A program made the translations under genes and the position numbers. This document shows, in pieces, positions 17,619-29,346 of a stretch of DNA of 64,000 nucleotides. Where the stretch lies: positions 4,526,001 through 4,590,000 of the forward strand of contig NZ_JAOQNK010000001.1 in assembly GCF_025961315.1 (NCBI RefSeq), read 5' to 3'. Source of the DNA: Sphingobacterium kitahiroshimense. Lineage in GTDB: Bacteria; Bacteroidota; Bacteroidia; Sphingobacteriales; Sphingobacteriaceae. Each line of letters starts with the position of its first letter. Positions within the stretch are counted from its first letter, which is position 1. Under the pieces are notes generated by a model that was not told the DNA's origin, ran no database searches, and saw only the letters and a list, made by a program, of their open reading frames with translations.

Positions 17619-18857
17619 AACCTCCGCTGTAACAACCTGATATTTATTTCCGGTAAATTTTGTCACGAGCATACTTGCTACAGTGTCTCCGGTAGAATTT
17701 AATATGGTCGCTAATGGATCAACGAGCGTTCCGATAATCATTACAGCAGGGACGGCTTCGATTGGAAGATCTAAAACAGAGATCATTAACATTTCTCCAA
17801 TATATCCACCATTAGGAATTCCTCCTGCTACCACACTAACTAGAACAGTAATTCCGAGTGACATAACGAGCGTCATCGGATCAAAAAAATCTTTTCCTAT
17901 TAACAAAAATGCAACGTATATTTTAAAAATAGAAGATATACTGGATCCTTGTTTATGTAGCGTTGTTCCCAAAGGAATGACCACATTAGCGATTGTATCT
18001 GGAACTCCAATTTTTTTTGCAGCCAGTAAGTTAGCAGGCATTGTTGCCAAACTACTGCAAGAACCTAATGCAGTCAGCGTGGGAACAATATTATTTTTCC
18101 AATAAGAGGTAATTCCATATTTGCCATTCGCAATAAATGCAAAGACAGTGAAACCCACAAAAAAATAACAGGTTCCAAATAAATAATAAAGCCCTAAAGG
18201 TTTGGCATAGAAACCAAAAAGTTGTGGTCCTAAACTACTGACTTGATAAGCAAAATAAGCACCTAAACCGATCGGTGAAATTTTCATGATCAAAATCAAC
18301 AGATTTTTCATCACTTCATTTCCAGCATTTAAGAAAGATAGGAATGGCTGTGCAACAGCACTTGATTTTCGCGTAGCGATACCCACTAAAAATGAGAAAA
18401 TTACAAGAGCAAGCATATTCTCTCGTGATAGTAGTTTACCAAACTCTGAAACGGTTAAAAAGCGAACCATCTTATCACTCCATGTGTCATCAGGATTATT
18501 GTCCAGAAGTTCTGAGCCAGTTGGTACCATGGGAGCGTCAAGAGGAAAGAAATAAAGGACGGCAATCGTAGCACAGGCAGAGATGAGTACACCCATTAAA
18601 AAAACACCGGTCATTGCCCCGATGATCTTGCCGAGTTGGTTTGTTCCTTCAATATTAGCTACAGATGATGAGATAGCAAAAAAAACTAGAGGAATGACAG
18701 CAACAAATAACAAGTTCAGGAAAATATCACCTATAGGCTTGATATATGGAACTATAGTAGGTAAATATATTCCTAAGATACTCCCTGCAAGGATACCTAC
18801 AATAAGTAGGATGATGCTTCCATAATTTTGGAGAAATATATTGGTTGTGTATGTCAT
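17607..18857 (-). CDS. Dicarboxylate/amino acid:cation symporter (DAACS family)
   Basis: A 416-residue transporter with eight membrane helices and two re-entrant loops. The substrate and sodium-site motif of the family is kept as NSTGDTVASMLVTK near the C-terminus, and the first hairpin carries GSCSSLATMPANL in place of the usual serine-rich TSSSxATLP. It imports glutamate, aspartate, C4-dicarboxylates or neutral amino acids with Na+ or H+; the exact substrate cannot be chosen. It is a single gene. Confidence 0.9.
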   Translation of the reverse strand: MTYTTNIFLQNYGSIILLIVGILAGSILGIYLPTIVPYIKPIGDIFLNLLFVAVIPLVFFAISSSVANIEGTNQLGKIIGAMTGVFLMGVLISACATIAVLYFFPLDAPMVPTGSELLDNNPDDTWSDKMVRFLTVSEFGKLLSRENMLALVIFSFLVGIATRKSSAVAQPFLSFLNAGNEVMKNLLILIMKISPIGLGAYFAYQVSSLGPQLFGFYAKPLGLYYLFGTCYFFVGFTVFAFIANGKYGITSYWKNNIVPTLTALGSCSSLATMPANLLAAKKIGVPDTIANVVIPLGTTLHKQGSSISSIFKIYVAFLLIGKDFFDPMTLVMSLGITVLVSVVAGGIPNGGYIGEMLMISVLDLPIEAVPAVMIIGTLVDPLATILNSTGDTVASMLVTKFTGNKYQVVTAEVLKS

Positions 18858-19235
18858 TGTGGATACTAATTTAGTTTTTTTTATTTATATATCATTTAAT
18901 ATATAGTGAACGGAACTTAAAATTCAAAATTTTCAATTTATACTAGTTTGATTTTGAATATCTAGTAATTAGATTTAGCTTTTGGTAAGTAGTAAATCAA
19001 CAGTTTTCAATTTTAATATTGACTAAATGGTAAAGAGGTTTATACAACTTATCGGTGTTTTAATGCATTTGAACAGTTAACGGTATGATATGAGTGTTTT
19101 AAATAATTGTTAACAACTTGATATTCTAAAAAGTCTTTTCTATTTTAGTCCAAAATAGTGACTCTAACCTATGTATCACTTTAAATAGATGCCTTTTCGT
19201 TTTTTTGAAAAAATAGTCTAATTTCACACTGCCTT
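18858..19235. other. Intergenic region, symporter / ECF sigma gene
   Basis: 378 AT-rich bases between divergent starts, presumably with promoters for both. No consensus TAnnTTTG box, strong hairpin or small open frame with a recognisable product was found. Confidence 0.4.
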
Positions 19236-19817
19236 ATGACAGATTCACAATTGATAGACAGTTTGAAAGGAGACGATCAAACGGGATTTGTTATCATCTA
19301 TCATCGATTTTATAAGCAATTATTCTTTTTTATACTGAAGTATATCAAAGAAGCAGATGTTGCGGAAGAGATCGTAGCTGACGTATTTGTTAAGGTGTGG
19401 GATCGTCGGATGGATTTTCCCACTATGGAAAACCTACGGGCGTTTATTTATATTTCAGCTAAAAATGCAAGTCTTAACACGATTCGGGCAAAACGTTCCA
19501 AAGGTATTCATGAATCTTTATCAGACTATGAAGATCTTTTAGTTGATGACAAGGATGCCTTTTCGAATTTGATACATGCCGAACTTGTTCATGCTATTTT
19601 TACAGAAGTAGAAAAATTACCTGAAAAACAAAAAGAAGTTTTTAATTTAACCTTCCTAGAAGATAAGACCGTTGAGGAAATTGCAGAAGAACTGGCAATG
19701 AGTCCTGCCGCCGTATACACTAACCGTTCTCGTGCAATTAACACAATTAGACACCTGTTAAAGGCAAAAAATACATTAGCACTTTTTGCTTTTTTATCCT
19801 TTGTTGGTCAAAAGTAA
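19236..19817 (+). CDS. ECF RNA polymerase sigma factor (FecI-like)
   Basis: A 193-residue sigma-70 factor with region 2 (YHRFYKQLFFFILKYIKEADVAEE, DVFVKVWD) and region 4 (LPEKQKEVFNLTFLEDKTVEEIAEEL). It is the Bacteroidota FecI type that pairs with a FecR anti-sigma factor and drives a downstream SusC/SusD operon when the transporter senses its ligand. The fecR gene follows after 100 bases on the same strand, then susC and susD. Confidence 0.93.
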   Translation: MTDSQLIDSLKGDDQTGFVIIYHRFYKQLFFFILKYIKEADVAEEIVADVFVKVWDRRMDFPTMENLRAFIYISAKNASLNTIRAKRSKGIHESLSDYEDLLVDDKDAFSNLIHAELVHAIFTEVEKLPEKQKEVFNLTFLEDKTVEEIAEELAMSPAAVYTNRSRAINTIRHLLKAKNTLALFAFLSFVGQK

Positions 19818-19917
19818 ATATATATTTTATTTAATTCATTATTAGATATTTAGGTGTTTTCCTCAAATGTGCTGTAAGATTGTTAAGTAACTCGTGTTTC
19901 TATTATCAAAATGAATA

Positions 19918-21105
19918 ATGGCAAACACGAAGCATCATATAGACAACACCTTAATCCTATTGCAAGAATATTTGAAAGGCAATATTCATCCAACTACAGA
20001 TAGAGAGCTTCGGATGCTTTTTCAGCAATATCCAGATTTACGAATCATGGTAGAAAAGTTGGAAAATGCTGATCATTTGCGTCAAGAACTAGAATACTAT
20101 CGTGTGCACGTCAAAGATATCGAAAAAAGAGAATCTCGAGTACTCTCTAATATCATGACAAAAATTGAGAAACCATCTTTAAAGAAAACGACAAGTTATA
20201 AAAAGTTACCACTATGGTATACAGTTGCTGCTTGTTTCATTGGATTAGCAATATTTGGTATTTGGACCATCAAAAGTAAAGATCACAATAACAATATTGA
20301 TGTTACAAAATTAGCAGAAAACCTGCACCCTGGTGGAAACAAAGCAACACTTCATTTTTCTGACGGGAGCAGTTTAGGATTAGATCAAAGCCATAATGGA
20401 ATAGTTATAGGCAGTAGTATCACCTATAATGATGGTTCCGTAGCCTTAGGTAGCTCGACGGATAAAAGACAGATGATGACCTTATCAACTCCGCGGGGAG
20501 GGCAATATGAGATTCAGTTGTCGGATGGTACAAAAGTATGGCTAAATGCATCTACAAGTCTAAAATACCCAGATAAATTTACAGAACAGCAACGTTTAGT
20601 GGAATTAGACGGTGAAGCCTTCTTTGAAGTAGCGAAATCGCAAGGTAGACCATTTATTGTTATTACTGCAAAGGAAAAAATAGAAGTGTTAGGAACTCAT
20701 TTCAATGTCTATTCTTATCCAAATGAGAAAGAATCCAAAGTTTCTTTAAAAGAAGGTAAAGTTAAAGTTTCTGTTCCCACTGGAGAAGAGAAAGTACTTG
20801 CACCAGGCGAACAGGCAGTGGTCAATGGAGAAAACCTTCGTGTGCAACAAGTCTCTATAGATGAAAGTATCTCTTGGACAAATGATGAGTTTATGTTTAA
20901 TAATGAACCTCTAGGTACAGTGCTGACACAGGTCGCAAGATGGTATGATATAGATATCGATATAGACCCTAGTCTTTCAAAAATTACGCTATGGGGATCC
21001 GTTTCCCGACTTGATACTTTTGATAAAGTGTTAAAAATTATAAAAATGACTGACGATAAAATTAAAATTCAAATCGAAGGGAGGAGGGTAAAGCTTATGA
21101 AATAA
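19918..21105 (+). CDS. FecR-family anti-sigma factor
   Basis: A 395-residue membrane protein: cytoplasmic N-terminal anti-sigma part (about 1-97), one membrane helix (about 100-118, WYTVAACFIGLAIFGIW), then a periplasmic FecR domain with LSTPRGGQYEIQLSDG and GEAFFEVAKSQGRPF, and a C-terminal DUF4974 region (NNEPLGTVLTQVARWYDIDI). It holds the sigma factor until the STN domain of the partner SusC reports substrate. Position between sigma and susC genes fits this. Confidence 0.93.
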   Translation: MANTKHHIDNTLILLQEYLKGNIHPTTDRELRMLFQQYPDLRIMVEKLENADHLRQELEYYRVHVKDIEKRESRVLSNIMTKIEKPSLKKTTSYKKLPLWYTVAACFIGLAIFGIWTIKSKDHNNNIDVTKLAENLHPGGNKATLHFSDGSSLGLDQSHNGIVIGSSITYNDGSVALGSSTDKRQMMTLSTPRGGQYEIQLSDGTKVWLNASTSLKYPDKFTEQQRLVELDGEAFFEVAKSQGRPFIVITAKEKIEVLGTHFNVYSYPNEKESKVSLKEGKVKVSVPTGEEKVLAPGEQAVVNGENLRVQQVSIDESISWTNDEFMFNNEPLGTVLTQVARWYDIDIDIDPSLSKITLWGSVSRLDTFDKVLKIIKMTDDKIKIQIEGRRVKLMK

Positions 21106-21144
21106 TGATTACACTCAGAATCTAATATTTCGTAATCTTAAGTA

Positions 21145-21170
21145 GCTGAGGAAGGTGGTACTTCCCCAGC
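21145..21170 (+). promoter_or_regulatory. Hairpin in the fecR-susC gap
   Basis: GCTGaGGAAG / CTTCCcCAGC with one mismatch and a 6-base loop lies midway in the 131-base gap. It has no T-tract, so it is not a classic terminator; it could protect or attenuate the susC transcript. Function not shown. Confidence 0.4.
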
Positions 21171-21236
21171 AATTGGTTCGAAAATTAAAAAATACTTGCT
21201 AACTATTTATTAAACTAACAAAACCAACCAAATGTA

Positions 21237-24200
21237 ATGAAAAAGTATAAATACCTCATTATTATGAAAATGATTATTATGCTTCTTTTGTTTACCGTGG
21301 GACAGCTTCATGCAGGAAGTTTTGCTCAAACGGTACGTATTAAGAAGAAGAATAGTGCTATTGTTGACGTATTCCGTGAAATAAAAAAGCAGACTGGATA
21401 TACAGTTCTTTGTAAATCGGAAATTATCAACAATACGCCTTCTGTAAGTGTAGATTTTGATAATGTAACGTTAGACCGTGCCCTTTCCGAGTTGCTAACT
21501 CCACGTGGACTGACTTATATTAAAGATGGAAAGTCTATCGTCGTTAAATCGGGTAAACCTGATTTTGATAACCAACAAACTATTAAGAATTCCAAAATCA
21601 CAATCTTAAGTGAACAAAAATCGGTACATGGACAAGTAACAGACCAAAGTGGACAGGTGCTTTCTGGTGTCAGTGTTTCGATTAAAGGAACAAAAAATAC
21701 TGTAGGAACCGACCAAAATGGCAATTATTCGATTGTAGCATCACGAGGATCTATCTTACAGTTTAACTTTTTAGGTTATGAAAGAAAAGAAGTAGAAGTT
21801 GTTTCTGAGACCGTAAATGTGAGCCTGCAGTTTAGTCAAGCAAATTTAGAAGAGGTTGTTGTAACGGGGTATGGTACGTTTAAGAAATCAGATTATACTG
21901 GATCTGCTTCAACAATCCGTACTGAGCGCATGTCCGACGTGCCTGCTGTCGATTTTTCGACAATGCTTCAGGGAAATGCGCCTGGGGTGCAAGTTAATTC
22001 ACTTTCCGGTCAGCCAGGTGGTGCTACTGATATCCGTATTAGAGGAATGGGATCTATTAATGCTTCTAGCAAACCTTTATTTGTCATCGACGGTGTTCCC
22101 GTAATGTCTAATGATATTTCATCAAGTAGTTCAAATAATGCTGGATTGGATGTCATGTCTACTTTGAGTAATGCCGATATTGAGCAGATTACAGTAATTA
22201 AAGATGCCGCAGCAGCTTCACTTTATGGATCACGTGCTGCTGGTGGAGTAATTTTGATTACCACAAAGTCTGGAAAAGCTGGAAAGCCAGTATTCTCATT
22301 TAAGGGTGCTTATGGTCTTTCAAGTCAAGCAACAGATTTCCGTGAGGTCATGGATGGTCCCCAACGACGCGAGATGCTTTTGGAAGGACTTCGAAACCGC
22401 GCTCGTTATATTGATAAGGTGATCGATGATAACTTAATAGAAGAATATGCACAAGCGAACATCGATAAGTATGCACCTAAACCTTGGAGTGGTTGGACAG
22501 ATTGGAAGAAAGAATTGTTTCGCCAAAATTCTCCATTTAGAAATGCAGATCTTTCTGCTTCAGGAGGTGATGGTAAGCTCTCTTACTACACATCGATGGG
22601 GTATGTCAATCAAACAGGTTTGTCTTATCAATCTGGTTTTGAGCGTATAACTGGCCGTTTGAATGTTAAATATAAAATGAGCGATAAAATAGAACTTGGA
22701 GCTAATATTCTATACTCAAACATTGCTCAAGATGTGAATTCAGAAGGAGGAGCTTATACTTCACCGATCTATTCAACTCGTCATAAGATTACAGCTTCGG
22801 AGCCGGTGTACAATGAAGATGGTTCATTTTTCACAGATTTCTTTTCTAATGGACCGCGTAATCCTAAAGCAACTTCCTTGTATAATTACCGAAGAGAACA
22901 GGGTGATCGTTCTTTTAATACCGTATTTGCCAATTATAAGTTCTTTGATGGTTTAGTCTTTAATACAACTTTTAGTTTAGACCATACCAATACCAAATAT
23001 AATTCTTGGTCAGATCCACGTACATCAGACGGTGAGAAAACAAATGGTTCTTTAACTACAAGTTTTACAGATTATAATCAGATCGTATGGCGGAATAGTT
23101 TAACTTATAATAAGACTTTTGCTAACAAACATCATTTGGATATATTGGGCGGATATGAGGTTAATAAATTTCGCAAAGATGGAATTGATGGTGCAAAAGA
23201 TAATTTTCCTTCAGTAGATAAAGTTGTTCTTTCAAATGGATCTGTAATTACAGATCTTTCTGGTTCCAATTCAGAATGGCGTTTGTTGTCTTACCTTTCC
23301 AGAGCAAACTATAATTATGATGATAAATATTTCTTTGGTGGTAGCGTTCGTATGGATGGTAGCTCTCGTATTCATCGTGATAGCCGTTGGGGGAAATTCT
23401 GGTCCTTATCAGGAGCATGGAAGTTTTCAAAAGAAAACTTTATGGAATCATTAGGTGACGTTGTAACTGACGGTAAGATTCGGGTGTCATATGGTACTAA
23501 TGGTACTCTACCCAATACGTATTATACTTATATGGATTTGACCGGTTTTGGTTTTCCTTATCTTAATAATCCTGGTATAAGAGAAACTCAGATTGGAAAC
23601 CCGGCTTTACAATGGGAGAAACAAAATAATCTAAATATTGGATTAGATCTTCGTCTTTTTGATCGTTTGGGAGCTACCTTCGAATGGTACAGACGCCAGT
23701 CGTCAGATCTATTGAACGATATGCCTACGTCCTATACAACAGGTTTTTCTGCTTATCTAACTAATATTGGAGCACTTCGTAACTCAGGAATAGAAGTTGA
23801 TTTGAATGCAGATATTTTAAGAGATTCTGAATTTAAATGGACTTCAAATCTAAATTTTGGAATGAACAGAAATAAGACTGTATCATTAGCTGATGGAAGT
23901 TCTGAGTTAAGGGACGGTACATTGATTCACCGTGTCGGCCAACCATGGTATAGCTATTATCTGATCGAATTTGCGGGGATAAGTAAGGAAACGGGTGTTC
24001 CGCAATATTACATCAATGATCCAGCTAATCTAGATTCAAGAGATATCACAGAAGATTATACCAAAGCAAACAGAATTCTTTATAAAAGTGTTGATCCTAA
24101 GTTGATCGGTGGTTTTACTAATACCCTTCGTTATAAGATTTTTGATCTAAACTTTACATGGACATATTCTCTGGGTGGTTATTCATACGATAGCGGTGCG

Positions 24201-24584
24201 AGTAAAACAGAGCTTGCTGGAAAAACGGGTTATGATAATATTCCGCAATATTATGAACGCAGATGGCAAAAGCCAGGTGATGATACCGATATCGAGATGT
24301 TTATGGTTGGAAATACTTACGATATGAGCAGTGTAGCCAATACACGTCGTGTTCATTCAACAGATCATATCCGATTGAAAAACTTGACTTTCGGAGTATC
24401 TCTTCCGCAACACATTGCACGTCGTCTTAAAGTGAGTAATATCAGAGCATATTGTTCAGGAGTCAATCTTTTGACTTTTGCAGCTTATAATAATTATGAT
24501 CCTGAGGTACCTGTAAATGGTACAGTATATTTTGAATCCCCAAAACTGAAGACGGTTACTTTTGGTTTGGATATTAAATTCTAA
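21237..24584 (+). CDS. SusC/RagA TonB-linked outer-membrane transporter with STN domain
   Basis: An 1115-residue outer-membrane receptor. In order: signal peptide (to about residue 31, ending FAQ), STN signalling domain (about 45-105), carboxypeptidase-regulatory-like domain (about 125-205, VHGQVTDQSGQVLSGVSVSIKG), the VVVTGYGT boundary motif, plug (about 215-350, with DAAAASLYGSRAAGGVILITT), then a beta-barrel ending in FGLDIKF. The STN domain implies trans-envelope signalling to the FecR protein upstream. It imports a large substrate captured with SusD, 9 bases downstream. The substrate cannot be read from the sequence. Confidence 0.95.
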   Translation: MKKYKYLIIMKMIIMLLLFTVGQLHAGSFAQTVRIKKKNSAIVDVFREIKKQTGYTVLCKSEIINNTPSVSVDFDNVTLDRALSELLTPRGLTYIKDGKSIVVKSGKPDFDNQQTIKNSKITILSEQKSVHGQVTDQSGQVLSGVSVSIKGTKNTVGTDQNGNYSIVASRGSILQFNFLGYERKEVEVVSETVNVSLQFSQANLEEVVVTGYGTFKKSDYTGSASTIRTERMSDVPAVDFSTMLQGNAPGVQVNSLSGQPGGATDIRIRGMGSINASSKPLFVIDGVPVMSNDISSSSSNNAGLDVMSTLSNADIEQITVIKDAAAASLYGSRAAGGVILITTKSGKAGKPVFSFKGAYGLSSQATDFREVMDGPQRREMLLEGLRNRARYIDKVIDDNLIEEYAQANIDKYAPKPWSGWTDWKKELFRQNSPFRNADLSASGGDGKLSYYTSMGYVNQTGLSYQSGFERITGRLNVKYKMSDKIELGANILYSNIAQDVNSEGGAYTSPIYSTRHKITASEPVYNEDGSFFTDFFSNGPRNPKATSLYNYRREQGDRSFNTVFANYKFFDGLVFNTTFSLDHTNTKYNSWSDPRTSDGEKTNGSLTTSFTDYNQIVWRNSLTYNKTFANKHHLDILGGYEVNKFRKDGIDGAKDNFPSVDKVVLSNGSVITDLSGSNSEWRLLSYLSRANYNYDDKYFFGGSVRMDGSSRIHRDSRWGKFWSLSGAWKFSKENFMESLGDVVTDGKIRVSYGTNGTLPNTYYTYMDLTGFGFPYLNNPGIRETQIGNPALQWEKQNNLNIGLDLRLFDRLGATFEWYRRQSSDLLNDMPTSYTTGFSAYLTNIGALRNSGIEVDLNADILRDSEFKWTSNLNFGMNRNKTVSLADGSSELRDGTLIHRVGQPWYSYYLIEFAGISKETGVPQYYINDPANLDSRDITEDYTKANRILYKSVDPKLIGGFTNTLRYKIFDLNFTWTYSLGGYSYDSGASKTELAGKTGYDNIPQYYERRWQKPGDDTDIEMFMVGNTYDMSSVANTRRVHSTDHIRLKNLTFGVSLPQHIARRLKVSNIRAYCSGVNLLTFAAYNNYDPEVPVNGTVYFESPKLKTVTFGLDIKF

Positions 24585-24593
24585 AAAAAGACT

Positions 24594-26045
24594 ATGAAAC
24601 TTATATTATCAACGGTTCTGATATCTTGTACTTTGTTAGTTGGATGTGGGGACCAATGGCTGGAGAAATCCCAGCCAAGTACTTCTACAGAAAGTTCTGA
24701 AGCAATTAAATCTCCCCGAGAAGCTCAATATGCTTTAAATGGCATTTACGATATTCTACGTGGTTATGAATATTATGGAGCTCGTATGACTTATTATGGC
24801 GATGTAACTGGAGAAGATATGTTGTCGAACGGTGACACAAAACGTGCTGCAAAATATTATCTTTTTGATTTTAACAAGGACAATACTCCTTCATCACTGT
24901 GGTATCAGCCTTATCGTGTTTTAAGAAATGCGAATGGTGTTTTGGCCTTCGTTAATGGAGTTGAGAAAGAACAATTGACCGATGAACTCAATGACATAAA
25001 AGGACAGGCATTAACACTTCGCGCGTTGGCACATTTTGATCTGGTTAAAGTGTTTGGAGATCCTTATACAAAAAACAACGGGGCCTCACTAGGGGTACCG
25101 ATTGAAATAGAAAAACATAATTCAACTAATAAACCTGCACGTAATTCAGTAAAAGAAGTCTATACACAGATTGTAGATGATTTGGAAAATGCTGTAATAT
25201 TATTGAGTACTGCGAAAAAAAATGGCAAACTTAATAAATTTGGTGCACAGCAACTATTAGCAAGAGCTTATCTTTATATGGGCGAAAATTCCAATGCTTT
25301 AACTGTCGCGATGCAATTGATCAAAGAAGCGGAAACAACCCAGAGCTCGACTAAAGGTCAATATCTGTTATGGACAAATAGTGAATACGCTTCTGTTTGG
25401 TCAAAGGATTTTACAAATGAAGTTTTGTTTCAGCTATCTATTGTAAAGACTGAAAACGGTCCTGGAAAAGAAGGAATAGGGTACCTATTGTGGAGAAATG
25501 GATATAATGACATTATTTTATCGGACGATTATATGAAGTTAATCAAAGATGACTCCAATGATGTCCGTCATAAGGTCATTACAAAATATACCAGTAAACA
25601 GGTTGACTATTATTATTTGAACAAATATCCTGGAAATACTTCTGATGGTGAAAATCCTGAATTTGCAGATGTTCCTGTCCTTCGTCTTTCGGAGGGATAT
25701 TTAATTGCAGCTGAAGCTGCCGTTAAACTAAACGACAATAGTAATGCGTTGAAATACCTAAATGCAATAGTTTCGCGTGCAAATCCTGCAAAATCTGTTA
25801 CTGGTGTTGTGACTTTACAACGAGTTATGGAAGAGCGCCGTCGTGAACTTGTAGGTGAGGGACATCGACTATTTGATGCATTACGCAACAATATGCGTAT
25901 AGAGCGTAAAGGTAGTGCTCATGTTTCGCCATCTTTAAGACCTGAAACTAAATCTTTTGATCGTACTTTTTTCAAAACATTGATGGCTATTCCACGAATT
26001 GAGATTGATGCGAATAAAAACATCGTTCAAAACGACGGATATTAA
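24594..26045 (+). CDS. SusD/RagB surface lipoprotein
   Basis: A 483-residue lipoprotein: signal with lipobox LVGC (Cys18), then the SusD-like TPR fold. Family features are EAQYALNGIYDILRG at the N-terminus, KGQALTLRALAHFDLVKVFGDPY near 150 and the C-terminal ERRRELVGEGHRLFDALRN. SusD caps the SusC barrel on the cell surface and binds the substrate. It is separated from susC by 9 bases and from the phosphoesterase by 8. Confidence 0.94.
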   Translation: MKLILSTVLISCTLLVGCGDQWLEKSQPSTSTESSEAIKSPREAQYALNGIYDILRGYEYYGARMTYYGDVTGEDMLSNGDTKRAAKYYLFDFNKDNTPSSLWYQPYRVLRNANGVLAFVNGVEKEQLTDELNDIKGQALTLRALAHFDLVKVFGDPYTKNNGASLGVPIEIEKHNSTNKPARNSVKEVYTQIVDDLENAVILLSTAKKNGKLNKFGAQQLLARAYLYMGENSNALTVAMQLIKEAETTQSSTKGQYLLWTNSEYASVWSKDFTNEVLFQLSIVKTENGPGKEGIGYLLWRNGYNDIILSDDYMKLIKDDSNDVRHKVITKYTSKQVDYYYLNKYPGNTSDGENPEFADVPVLRLSEGYLIAAEAAVKLNDNSNALKYLNAIVSRANPAKSVTGVVTLQRVMEERRRELVGEGHRLFDALRNNMRIERKGSAHVSPSLRPETKSFDRTFFKTLMAIPRIEIDANKNIVQNDGY

Positions 26046-26053
26046 ACTATATT

Positions 26054-27205
26054 ATGATGTATAACTGCATTCAACAATATCTTAAAGTCAATTATACTGG
26101 TCCTTCTAGGATCAGTATAACTTGTGCTTTGACAGCTGTATTTGTTCTTTTTCAGATTGCCGATACACATAGTCAAACAACATTGGGAAATAACGATGGT
26201 CCCTATTTCTTTTATGAAAATGGAGGAACGAAGCTAGTGCGTGTCGAGAATGGTGAGATTCGAAGTGAAGTACCGGTTAAATCATCATTTAAAGTAGTGA
26301 CAGAAGATGGTGAACATCAGTTTGAAATAAAGCGACACCCGGTTAAGACACCTAGCTGGAATTCTCCAAAAAGTAGTAAGATCCTTGTTTTGTCAGACCC
26401 TCACGGCGATTTTCAATCTTTTTATGCTATTCTAAAAGCGCAGAAAGTAATAGGAAGTAATTATCAATGGACTTTTGGAAAAAATAACCTTGTCATTATC
26501 GGAGATGTATTTGATCGCGGTAAAGACGTATTACCCATCTTTTGGTTAATCTATAAATTGGAAAATGAAGCCGAAAAAGCTGGCGGTAAGGTGCATTTTC
26601 TTTTGGGTAATCATGAAGAAATGATCTTACGGGGTAATTATAAATATGCCCAAGATAAGTATAAGGTACTTGCTGACGCTATTGGAAAAGATTATCGTGA
26701 TTTCTGGTCATTAGATACTGAATTAGGAAAATGGCTACAAAGTAAAAATACGATGGAGAAGATAGGAGATCATCTTTTTGTACATGCAGGACTTAGTCAT
26801 ACCATGTTAGATCCACAATGGACAATACCTGCAGTAAATGATTCTGTTCGTTTCTATTTGTTTCAAACCAAAGAAGAGAGACATAAGTCGCGTGCAGGTA
26901 CTTTTCTATTTGGTAGTGAAGGACCTTTGTGGTATCGCGGCATGGTTCGTCAAGAAGAAAAGTATGAGCCTTTAAACGAAACAGATTTAGAAAAAATACT
27001 GCAGATTTACAGTGCAAAAAGAATATATCTTGGACATACAATTTTTCCAGAAGTTACCTCTTTTTATAAAGGTCGCGTTGTTGCCGTAAATGTGAGTAAT
27101 GAAGCAAATAGATTAGGAGGCAAAAGTCGTGGATTACTTATTGAAGGAAATAAGACGAGCGTCATTTATGATGATGTAAAGAAGAATAAGATATTAGCAC
27201 AATAA
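26054..27205 (+). CDS. Secreted calcineurin-like metallophosphoesterase
   Basis: A 383-residue protein with a hydrophobic N-terminal export signal (about residues 20-41, ending THSQ). All PPP-family metal motifs are present in order: SDPHGDF near 115, GDVFDRG near 153, GNHEE near 190, VHAGLS near 240 and GHT near 325. This resembles the Shewanella-like protein phosphatase branch. It starts 8 bases after susD, so it is almost certainly in the same operon and acts in the periplasm or at the surface on what SusCD captures or imports. Alternative: a secreted protein phosphatase unrelated to nutrition. Confidence 0.86.
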   Translation: MMYNCIQQYLKVNYTGPSRISITCALTAVFVLFQIADTHSQTTLGNNDGPYFFYENGGTKLVRVENGEIRSEVPVKSSFKVVTEDGEHQFEIKRHPVKTPSWNSPKSSKILVLSDPHGDFQSFYAILKAQKVIGSNYQWTFGKNNLVIIGDVFDRGKDVLPIFWLIYKLENEAEKAGGKVHFLLGNHEEMILRGNYKYAQDKYKVLADAIGKDYRDFWSLDTELGKWLQSKNTMEKIGDHLFVHAGLSHTMLDPQWTIPAVNDSVRFYLFQTKEERHKSRAGTFLFGSEGPLWYRGMVRQEEKYEPLNETDLEKILQIYSAKRIYLGHTIFPEVTSFYKGRVVAVNVSNEANRLGGKSRGLLIEGNKTSVIYDDVKKNKILAQ

Positions 27206-27232
27206 AGTACTATTGTTTTATAAATGAATGTT

Positions 27233-27262
27233 TAGGCTGGGACTTTCCCAGCCTATTTGTTA
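27233..27262. terminator. Terminator between phosphoesterase and FG-GAP genes
   Basis: Perfect 10-bp stem TAGGCTGGGA/TCCCAGCCTA with a 3-base loop, placed between two convergent stops. The T-tract on the plus strand is short (TTTGTT). Confidence 0.8.
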
Positions 27263-27266
27263 AAAT

Positions 27267-28478
27267 TTATTTTTGACCCAATAACAGACGAACCTGAGAG
27301 CCCCATCCGCCGATCACCATATCAGCTATCCCATCAGCGTTGACATCGCCAACTGCAATACCCCAGCTTCTACCACGTGTAATCTCAGGGATTGTTTTGT
27401 CAGTAACAAAAGAAAAGTGACCCTTTCCATCGTTTCTTAAAGCTTGCACTTGCATCTCTTCAAAAGGAGGAATCTTGATCGCACTCAGTATAATGTCTAA
27501 GTGTCCGTCATGATCAAAATCAATTGCAGTAGCAGCATACGTAGAAAATGTTTGTTCTGGCATTCTAGATTCTGTTTCATCTACAAAACGACGGTCGCCC
27601 TGATTTATAAACAATCGGGCTCTGGGATCTTTATCTTTTGCGCCACCATTACTTGTTAGATTGGCGAAAAGTATATCGGGTTTCCCATCGCCATTTGCAT
27701 CAAATACAATCACCTCGCGGGTGTGTAAGGGGACCATGAGCGGTAATCCTGCGGTATGTTCTATGAAATTTCCTTTCCCATCATTAAATAATAAGCGATT
27801 TGGCGGAGTTTCGTTACCAATAATCATATCCATGTGACCATCAGCATCCAAATCTGCAAATTTGATGGATTGAGTTTGATCTTCAACCTGTGGAAGTGAA
27901 ATTGAAGTATGGTCTAAAAAATAACCAGGTCGTTTAGCATCATTTATCCATAAAAAATTTTGTGGTGATTTACCCGAATTACCGATAACAATATCCATAA
28001 GACCATCTCCGTTGACATCTGCTATGTCTAGGCCGTTAGCTTCGCTTTTGCCTAATATTCGATCGGATACATCGATAAATGTGCCATCACCTTTACCTAA
28101 ATAATACTCATGGTTCTGATCATCCTCAGCCACAAAAATAAAGTCTATAAAACCATCTTTATTAAAATCTGCCGCCCTTACATGCTCTGTATCATGCGGT
28201 TTTTCAGCAAAAACACCTTTCTTCCAAGAAAACTTACCACTTCCATCGTTAAGGTATAATCTGTTGGGTTCAGATTCTAGAGCCAGTACAAGATCAAGAT
28301 CTCCATCAGCATCAACATCGATCAGGATTACATCCAAAGCATGCGCTTTTGCATCTTGTGGAATATTTGTTAACGTCACATCATTAAAATATTTCTGTTG
28401 AGCCACACTGCATTGTGTAGACCCAAACAATAAGCATATGCTCATATAACTTAGTGACTGTTGGATGTAATTTTTCAT
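27267..28478 (-). CDS. Secreted FG-GAP/VCBS repeat beta-propeller protein
   Basis: About 403 residues from the ATG at 28478 (two codons after an upstream in-frame ATG). A signal peptide ends near SVAQQ. The rest is six to seven FG-GAP repeats, each with a calcium-type DxDGDxD loop (DVDADGDLDLVLA, DFNKDGFIDFIFV, DVNGDGLMDIVIG, DLDADGHMDMIIG, DANGDGKPDILFA, DFDHDGHLDIILS, DVNADGIADMVIG). Such propellers bind ligands or partner proteins outside the cell. It converges on the SusCD-phosphatase operon, so a link is possible but not shown. Confidence 0.87.
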   Translation of the reverse strand: MKNYIQQSLSYMSICLLFGSTQCSVAQQKYFNDVTLTNIPQDAKAHALDVILIDVDADGDLDLVLALESEPNRLYLNDGSGKFSWKKGVFAEKPHDTEHVRAADFNKDGFIDFIFVAEDDQNHEYYLGKGDGTFIDVSDRILGKSEANGLDIADVNGDGLMDIVIGNSGKSPQNFLWINDAKRPGYFLDHTSISLPQVEDQTQSIKFADLDADGHMDMIIGNETPPNRLLFNDGKGNFIEHTAGLPLMVPLHTREVIVFDANGDGKPDILFANLTSNGGAKDKDPRARLFINQGDRRFVDETESRMPEQTFSTYAATAIDFDHDGHLDIILSAIKIPPFEEMQVQALRNDGKGHFSFVTDKTIPEITRGRSWGIAVGDVNADGIADMVIGGWGSQVRLLLGQK

Positions 28479-28657
28479 AATCATTTTGTTTACAAGATGT
28501 TAATATATAAATAATTATTCATTTTTAATGAAAGGTTTTTAAATTTTCTTGATAAGAACAAACAATTTTATGAGGTATTTTTTTTACTTTTAATAATCTC
28601 AATGAAATATAAAGACTGATTATATGGATATCCATAGCAATTAAGTTCTTTTTATTC

Positions 28658-28665
28658 TATTTTTG
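28658..28665 (+). promoter_or_regulatory. Putative -7 box of mnmD
   Basis: TATTTTTG fits TAnnTTTG. It covers the TTG at 28663 that opens the frame, so translation must begin further down, at the ATG at 28672 (almost leaderless) or 28681. Confidence 0.45.
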
Positions 28666-28671
28666 TTATAT

Positions 28672-29346
28672 ATGCATGAAATGGAATTTGTAACAACAGG
28701 AGATGGTTCAAAAACATTGTTTAATGAACAAATAGGAGAGTGCTACCACTCCAAACATGGTGCAGTTCAAGAAAGTAAACATGTTTTTATTCAGACAGGA
28801 CTTGATTATTACATTCAGAAACACTCCTTAAAGGATATCACTATTTTGGAAGTAGGTTTTGGAACAGGCTTAAACTTTACGCAAACGCTCGCTTATACAT
28901 CTGGTAAAGAAATTTCGGTAGATTATGTAGGTATAGAAGGCTATCCATTGTCACTGGAGGTTATTCAGCAAATTGGTTATGATGCATTCGTTTCTGAAGA
29001 AAACTGGAATAATTATATATCAGGATATAAACAAGCTCTAAATGAAACTACGCAAATTGATTCAAATACGAATTTATATATCGATCATACCTTATTGATG
29101 GATTTTGGTTCAGATAAAACTTTTGATTTGGTATACTTTGATGCCTTTGCTGCTATTCATCAACCCGAAATGTGGTCAGATGAGGCTTTGGCCCATGTTG
29201 CAAAATTTGTAAAACCAGGAGGTGTATTTGTTACCTATGCTATTACCGGCAATCTCAAAAGAAGCATGAAAGCACTAGGATTTACGATCGAAAAAGCACC
29301 GGGAGCACCAGGGAAGAGAGAGATGTTACGGGCGACAAAGGTTTAA
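28672..29346 (+). CDS. mnmD: tRNA 5-methylaminomethyl-2-thiouridine methyltransferase MnmD
   Basis: About 224 residues from the ATG at 28672. The N-terminal VTTGDGSKTLFNEQIGECYH and SKHGAVQESKHVFI are hallmarks of MnmD, the methyltransferase half of MnmC; the SAM site is ILEVGFGTGLNF and the catalytic-type acidic motif is VYFDAFAAIHQPEMW. It methylates the wobble uridine of some tRNAs. The FAD-dependent MnmC1 half is absent, as is usual in non-proteobacterial genomes. Confidence 0.9.
   Translation: MHEMEFVTTGDGSKTLFNEQIGECYHSKHGAVQESKHVFIQTGLDYYIQKHSLKDITILEVGFGTGLNFTQTLAYTSGKEISVDYVGIEGYPLSLEVIQQIGYDAFVSEENWNNYISGYKQALNETTQIDSNTNLYIDHTLLMDFGSDKTFDLVYFDAFAAIHQPEMWSDEALAHVAKFVKPGGVFVTYAITGNLKRSMKALGFTIEKAPGAPGKREMLRATKV

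Follow-up and report, generated by a model that had tools for sequence, protein, structure and literature searches.

The window analysed here, a 64,000-nucleotide stretch of the Sphingobacterium kitahiroshimense genome (contig NZ_JAOQNK010000001.1, positions 4,526,001 to 4,590,000, in an assembly consisting of one contig of 6.29 Mb), carries between window positions 19236 and 27205 a series of five plus-strand genes, all of them open frames, in which a SusC/SusD pair and its regulators are followed directly by a phosphatase. The phosphatase is a PPP-family enzyme of the Shewanella-like branch, and its place behind SusD is conserved in the genus. Our tentative reading, which we regard as possible rather than probable, is that the unit is a variant of the published PUS loci that imports a phosphorylated oligomer, more likely a peptide-bearing one than a plain glycan. 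The five genes are as follows.

19236-19817, plus strand: extracytoplasmic function (ECF)-type RNA polymerase sigma factor, 193 aa (Pfam Sigma70_r2, r4 and r4_2)
19918-21105, plus strand: FecR-type anti-sigma factor, 395 aa (Pfam FecR and FecR_C)
21237-24584, plus strand: SusC/RagA-type TonB-dependent transporter with an N-terminal STN domain, 1115 aa (Pfam STN, CarbopepD_reg_2, Plug and barrel)
24594-26045, plus strand: SusD-type surface lipoprotein, 483 aa (Pfam SusD_RagB and SusD-like_3)
26054-27205, plus strand: Shewanella-like PPP phosphatase with a probable signal sequence, 383 aa (Pfam Metallophos; PDB chains 2z72, 1v73 and 2zbm)

The first-pass annotation of this DNA, made from the letters and open frames, had described the same five genes in series with the last three almost abutting, and the frames and the Pfam and NCBIfam matches agree with it: the gaps are 100 bases between the sigma factor gene and fecR, 131 between fecR and susC, 9 between susC and susD, and 8 between susD and the phosphatase gene. 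The SusC protein scores 785 bits against TIGR04056, while the sigma factor reaches 119.7 bits against TIGR02985, below the cut-off of 126.4. Read by eye, FecR has one membrane span and SusD a lipobox, LVGC. An ECF sigma factor, a FecR with its FecR_C domain and an STN domain on SusC, in series, are the components of trans-envelope signalling. Pfam found no glycoside hydrolase or lyase in the locus, so that the unit does not have the make-up of a polysaccharide utilization locus for glycans; with a SusC/SusD pair beside a phosphatase and no carbohydrate-active enzyme (CAZyme), it has the gene content of a PUS. The unit is bounded at both ends, because a sodium:dicarboxylate-type symporter gene diverges from it upstream and an FG-GAP repeat gene (27267-28484, opposite strand) converges on it downstream.

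Is the phosphatase truly part of the unit? Among 93 Sphingobacterium genomes, a phosphatase orthologue was found at 21 places in 20 genomes (identity at least 56%, the next match being at 40%), and a SusD orthologue at 19 places in 18 genomes (at least 73%, the next at 38%, with 17 candidates scored per genome). The phosphatase gene directly follows susD at all 19 SusD places, and SusD is present at 19 of the 21 phosphatase places. The sigma factor, FecR and SusC are also present in 18 of the 19 paired loci, the remaining locus being cut by a contig end (loci and genomes are given L and G numbers; this one is L063), and the SusD of L057 is broken into two frames. With 79 SusD matches among an estimated 5,300 or so genes in the genome, a random gene would stand behind a susD about 1.5% of the time. 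Kept in 19 loci, the order goes beyond chance, and the belonging of the phosphatase to the SusCD unit is supported. The two phosphatase places that lack SusD, L003 (genome G023, S. faecium) and L067 (genome G021), have no SusCD in the stretch fetched. The regulators too are missing beside the phosphatase in these two loci and in L106. The close phosphatase relatives on named contigs are those of Sphingobacterium sp. B16 (95%) and S. faecium (70%).

A wider view shows the phosphatase family to be patchy, because it is found in few genomes at every level: any match occurs in 33 of the 93 genus genomes and 46 of 301 family genomes, and, by profile at E 1e-15, in 50 of 250 order genomes and 6 of 395 phylum genomes. 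We assembled 77 loci of the family (the window, L002, L003 and L053-L126); matches in G018, G227 and G299, weak or broken, fall outside this set. SusD is encoded directly upstream of the phosphatase in 29 of them, one gene away in nine, farther off in the same run in four, and in 35 there is no SusD link. On a tree of 76 of these phosphatases (L084, broken in two, was omitted), the label of direct linkage needs 6 changes against a shuffled mean of 23.4, and that of one gene between needs 2 against 8.7; the SusD-phosphatase linkage thus appears to have arisen more than once, in separate clades. A small gene lies between susD and the phosphatase gene in eight genus loci, and in the two that were scanned (L075 and L080) it resembles DUF4843 at a score below the Pfam cut-off. 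In g14, another genus of the family, the order sigma factor, FecR, SusC, SusD, phosphatase is repeated in eight loci. We had considered L085, L090 and L126 as operons of SusCD, peptidase and phosphatase; an extra gene, of an FAD/Fe-S type in L090, precedes the phosphatase after a gap of 176-199 bases, and these loci are not counted as linked.

The phosphatase itself is well placed by its structural matches. Against PDB chains it is best matched by 2z72 (191.5 bits, E 2.5e-55, 268 residues aligned), with 1v73 and 2zbm scoring close by (E from 2.5e-55 to 1.8e-54); these chains carry the names protein-tyrosine-phosphatase or psychrophilic phosphatase I. No PPP chain outside this set scores above 17.2 bits, so that among solved structures the Shewanella enzyme is nearer than ApaH or PP1, and the window enzyme is best assigned to the Shewanella-like branch, the Shelphs, so named in PMC535813. 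The label calcineurin-like, under which the first-pass annotation had placed it, is too broad; in the PDB search the enzyme falls in with the PPP phosphatases of Shewanella. Identity as ApaH was also considered and set aside, the score being 29 bits where the cut-off is 176. The protein has the PPP motifs SDPHG, GDVFDRG, GNHE, HAG and GHT, corresponding to the Shelph pattern of GDxHG (here SDPHG), GDxxDRG and GNH(E/D) with downstream metal-binding histidines at H244 and H328. The metal and catalytic residues D115, D151, N186, H187, H244 and H328 are invariant across 16 aligned sequences, and so is Y198, the tyrosine of the LRYVHQRY stretch, where chain and author numbering are taken to be equal. 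Among the 77 family loci the first PPP motif reads SDxEG rather than SDxHG in 41 (for instance L095, L100 and L102), which places Glu at the position of a metal-binding His; 33 have His there and three neither. The corresponding His is essential in WipA, according to the available text of PMC5454105.

What these matches say of substrate is limited by the literature, insofar as the accessible parts of the two papers go. The Shewanella enzyme is Tyr-specific (PMC535813), and until WipA no other metallophosphoesterase had been shown to use phosphotyrosine as a substrate (PMC5454105). The residue matching Y198 cannot set specificity (PMC5454105), and PMC535813 cautions that the specificity of uncharacterised bacterial-like PPPs is not predictable. 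As to location, a hydrophobic N-terminal stretch, read by eye and ending in an AQ-like sequence in several orthologues, suggests that the phosphatase is exported. No lipobox was seen in it, and Pfam found no secretion-tail domain.

To which SusCD systems is the transporter related? The next closest SusDs in the genus, at 31-36% identity by local alignment and with SusCs at 32-35%, come from loci of a predicted muropeptide-uptake type. Such a locus comprises genes for an NlpC/P60 protein, an enolase of the L-Ala-D/L-Glu epimerase type, SusC and SusD, as at L162:458-2723 and, in the window's own genome, at L221:2557-9968. In a SusD tree the window group joins this muropeptide-type clade with a support of 0.996, the inner supports near the window group being lower. 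The background of the tree was a non-random set of 50 own-genome SusDs (30 plus 20 of the 79), chosen by score and length, together with SusDs farther from the phosphatase, and the neighbouring clade was chosen by its similarity to the window SusD; the closeness holds among the scored candidates and the own-genome SusDs tested. The window SusC scores 515 bits against the muropeptide-type SusC of its own genome.

The naming of this clade is grounded in its upstream genes. NlpC/P60 and epimerase genes lie just upstream in 16 of the 17 genus clade loci, the 17th (L161) being cut by a contig end, and they also stand upstream of the muropeptide-type SusCD in the own genome; their identities to the L162 pair are 60-96% and 79-98%. 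The first gene of L162 encodes an NlpC/P60 protein whose best chain is 3npf, a dipeptidyl-peptidase VI (238 bits), and the second an epimerase-type enolase (3iji at 475 bits; the L-Ala-D/L-Glu epimerase 1jpd at 134 bits). No NCBIfam model of the second gene is above its cut-off, N-acetyl-D-Glu racemase reaching 207 of 400 bits and L-Ala-D/L-Glu epimerase 152 of 343. Near the own-genome locus, on the opposite strand, is a gene resembling muramoyltetrapeptide carboxypeptidase (183 of 378 bits). Our literature searches turned up no paper on a muropeptide-type SusCD of such build. Three relatives (L157-L159), which come from other families within the class, have SusCs at 41-44% identity; their runs hold no evident partner enzyme, as judged from the scanned neighbours of L157. 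Transporter kinship thus favours, at one remove, a peptide-bearing cargo. The solved structures add little: SusC matches RagA at 338 bits and the SusC homologue 8aa4 at 341, SusD is best matched by 3kez at 392 bits, and these matches would leave the cargo unsettled.

The first-pass annotation contrasted this locus with SusCD loci in general, most of which it expected to carry glycoside hydrolases. That expectation does not hold up in a sample taken from the own genome. At 18 of 20 SusD places sampled there, non-randomly, the next gene is on the same strand, and in two of these 18 it is a glycosidase; the scan covered the gene directly behind SusD. A thioredoxin-type domain is found in six of the 18 (L202, L203, L206, L211, L213 and L214), against the two glycosidases. 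Two further operons are built like the window unit. At L219:4389-13190 the sigma factor, FecR, SusC and SusD genes are followed by one for an alkaline phosphatase, a PhoA-like enzyme matching 2w5v at 196 bits, and at L220:5399-12925 by one for a purple acid phosphatase, matching 1qfc at 139 bits. With the window unit these make three operons of like build in one genome, with phosphatases from three different families, and the layout is a recurring theme rather than one family of loci. PhoX had no match in the genome.

How might the window unit work? By analogy with known ECF/FecR/STN systems, cargo bound by the SusD lid and the SusC barrel would cause the STN domain of SusC to signal to FecR, and the ECF sigma factor so freed would increase transcription of the genes for SusC, SusD and the phosphatase. 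A phosphorylated oligomer would enter through SusC, a periplasmic Shewanella-like phosphatase would strip phosphate from it, and the released phosphate and the remainder would be able to cross the inner membrane. The cargo would be a phosphorylated peptide or a peptide-bearing cell-wall fragment more likely than a plain glycan. A narrower form of this proposal, which we consider unlikely, is that the unit is a dedicated importer of phosphorylated peptides or phosphorylated peptidoglycan fragments, its SusCD sharing an ancestor with the muropeptide transporter and having gained a periplasmic phosphatase of the tyrosine type. If this is true, the cell would feed on phosphoproteins or on the phosphate-bearing walls of other bacteria.

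The uptake of some phosphorylated compound, or phosphate scavenging, as the first-pass annotation had proposed, seems reasonable, because the phosphatase belongs to the unit (19 of 19 SusD places) and PUS loci of like build are induced by depletion of inorganic phosphate (Pi), according to the available text of PMC8115612. Its list of substrates fares less well: the enzyme belongs with the Shewanella-like PPP phosphatases, not with phytases, nucleotidases or classical scavenging enzymes, and the nearest SusCDs of the genus point to peptidoglycan peptides. No positive evidence for a phytate or nucleic acid cargo turned up, no direct test of either having been made. One might instead take the unit for a phosphate-starvation PUS proper, Pi-controlled, in which the cell takes up small or mixed organophosphates for their phosphate as nutrient and the carbon part is irrelevant. 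The PUSI and PUSII loci of Flavobacterium johnsoniae, which have nearly the same layout and rise under Pi depletion, speak for this, as do the PhoA-like and purple-acid-phosphatase-like operons of the own genome; but the window SusC is far from the SusCs of those two operons (313 and 270 bits, against 515 for the muropeptide type), and no Shewanella-like PPP enzyme is named in the accessible part of PMC8115612. We think this somewhat unlikely. The readings overlap, and a Pi-regulated locus could import phosphopeptides.

The company kept by relatives of the phosphatase bears on another rival, in which the locus serves the use of a phospho-glycan and the glycosidases are encoded at other sites of the genome. 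In L109 the phosphatase is fused to a rhamnosidase and stands beside an arabinofuranosidase, in L124 a GH5-like fusion stands beside a GH9, and in L122 the phosphatase follows a rhamnosidase gene, with a weak GH2-like gene as well. Against this rival, the same-strand runs of the 21 loci of the window's group (group A) contain few further genes, and the nearest SusCD relatives carry cell-wall peptide enzymes or none; we consider it improbable. The enzyme's identity and the transporter pedigree together point away from ordinary glycans. A last rival has the phosphatase dephosphorylate proteins of the cell's own envelope (it might, for example, tune the transporter as a tyrosine phosphatase), the cargo being unphosphorylated. 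The protein-tyrosine phosphatase activity reported for the Shewanella relative and the persistence of the gene without SusCD in three loci would fit. Linkage has, however, recurred in separate clades and with different types of SusCD, which fits cargo processing better, and the unit contains no kinase gene, so that we give this explanation very little weight.

Import of a peptide-bearing phosphorylated oligomer has its own difficulties. The phosphatase is retained without SusCD in L003, L067 and L106 and is unlinked to SusD in 35 of the 77 loci, and for that reason can have a separate use of its own. Relatives accompanied by rhamnosidase, GH5/GH9 or sulfatase genes fit glycans. The identity of SusC to the muropeptide clade is just 32-35%, so that the cargo may differ from that of the clade, and the 131-base gap 5' of susC leaves room for a separate promoter. 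All of these weigh against it.

Other partners of the phosphatase family are of several kinds. One SusCD run (L102) includes a thioredoxin, a Met-zincin, DsbD_N and an M1-type peptidase with the phosphatase; a thioredoxin-ankyrin protein stands beside a same-family phosphatase in L104, an M1 peptidase, without SusCD, in L113, and sulfatases in L125. Behind SusD in two loci the phosphatase is fused to a thioredoxin-type domain. Phosphatase-domain fusions, whether to a thioredoxin-type, a rhamnosidase or a GH5-like domain, were seen in L098, L101, L109 and L124. The thioredoxin and peptidase partners count in favour of a peptide-bearing cargo, but the family serves alongside polymers of more than one class. 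The idea that it is tied to peptidases alone was considered and is ruled out by the rhamnosidase, GH5/GH9 and sulfatase partners.

The gap between fecR and susC holds one candidate regulatory feature, seen in its minimum-energy fold.

21145-21170, plus strand: hairpin whose 4-bp and 5-bp stems are separated by a single mismatch, with a 6-base loop

The fold of the whole gap is weakly special (z -1.57, with 17 of 200 shuffles as good). Every one of the 18 group-A loci whose gap sequence is available has the hairpin; three of its nine pairs are changed on both sides, 95.6% of cells are paired, and its covariation score was reached by none of 500 shuffles, though one pair is broken in three of ten distinct rows. 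Our guess is that it controls expression between the regulators and the transporter. Searched against Rfam, positions 18000-29000 matched nothing up to E 1, and the whole window matched nothing at the gathering scores. In the gaps of groups B, C and D, folded and compared by eye, the hairpin shape looks alike and the sequence differs. A mismatched hairpin as a general SusC-leader element was tried and dropped, a strict match occurring in 2 of 20 own-genome leaders and in 10 of 200 shuffles, with no clear excess; the two are at L180, where the match lies about 500 bases 5' of the frame, and at L185, which showed no FecR. A scan of seven stretches for the Pho box, using an E. coli-type consensus, did no better than shuffles, and it weighs neither way because it was equally empty beside three PstS-like genes.

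A stand-alone gene for an MnmC2-type tRNA methyltransferase lies at 28663-29346 of the window, and in ten group-A relatives an MnmC2-like gene lies directly upstream of the sigma factor gene. The unit is therefore found on different sides of this gene. The upstream extra genes in the group-A runs are mostly of the MnmC type by similarity, and the one downstream extra gene scanned, in L057, encodes a 594-aa protein with a SWIM zinc finger by Pfam.

What would such a unit mean for SusCD systems? SusCD loci are commonly interpreted as loci for sugars, and a conserved SusCD with an enzyme of a protein-phosphatase family, akin to a predicted importer of peptidoglycan peptides, would widen the range of SusCD cargo. 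It would also give the Shewanella-like phosphatases of Bacteroidota a nutritional role, one that is directly testable. Our literature searches turned up no paper on a SusCD paired with a Shewanella-like phosphatase, PMC8115612 being the nearest; what is new here is the PUS layout, already published, with another enzyme family.

Among known systems, RagAB of Porphyromonas gingivalis has been implicated in protein uptake, according to the accessible text of PMC11817032; the RagA match to the window SusC does not set the cargo, because the SusC homologue 8aa4 scores equally. The Shelphs of Shewanella (1v73 and 2z72, known as psychrophilic phosphatase I or cold-active protein-tyrosine phosphatase) have their PPP motifs in common with the window enzyme, which, unlike the Shewanella enzyme, is encoded behind SusCD. 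The muropeptide-type locus has the closest genus SusD outside group A and the closest SusC among those compared, but no sigma factor, FecR or Shewanella-like phosphatase in the 17 genus stretches fetched, several of which begin just upstream of NlpC/P60. The nearest likeness is to the PUS loci of F. johnsoniae, as described in the available portion of PMC8115612, where PusD is reported to be polyphyletic. PUSI comprises an ECF sigma factor, PusCD1 and pf00149/pf16670 phosphodiesterases, and PUSII comprises FecR, PusCD2 and PhoA1. Pi induction has been shown for both, whereas the window unit is known from its genes and is likened to them by the published layout. Like the window unit, each has a SusCD-like pair with phosphatase genes in the place of CAZymes and a regulator in the cluster, the ECF sigma factor in PUSI and FecR in PUSII. 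The window unit differs in having a Shewanella-like PPP phosphatase as its enzyme.

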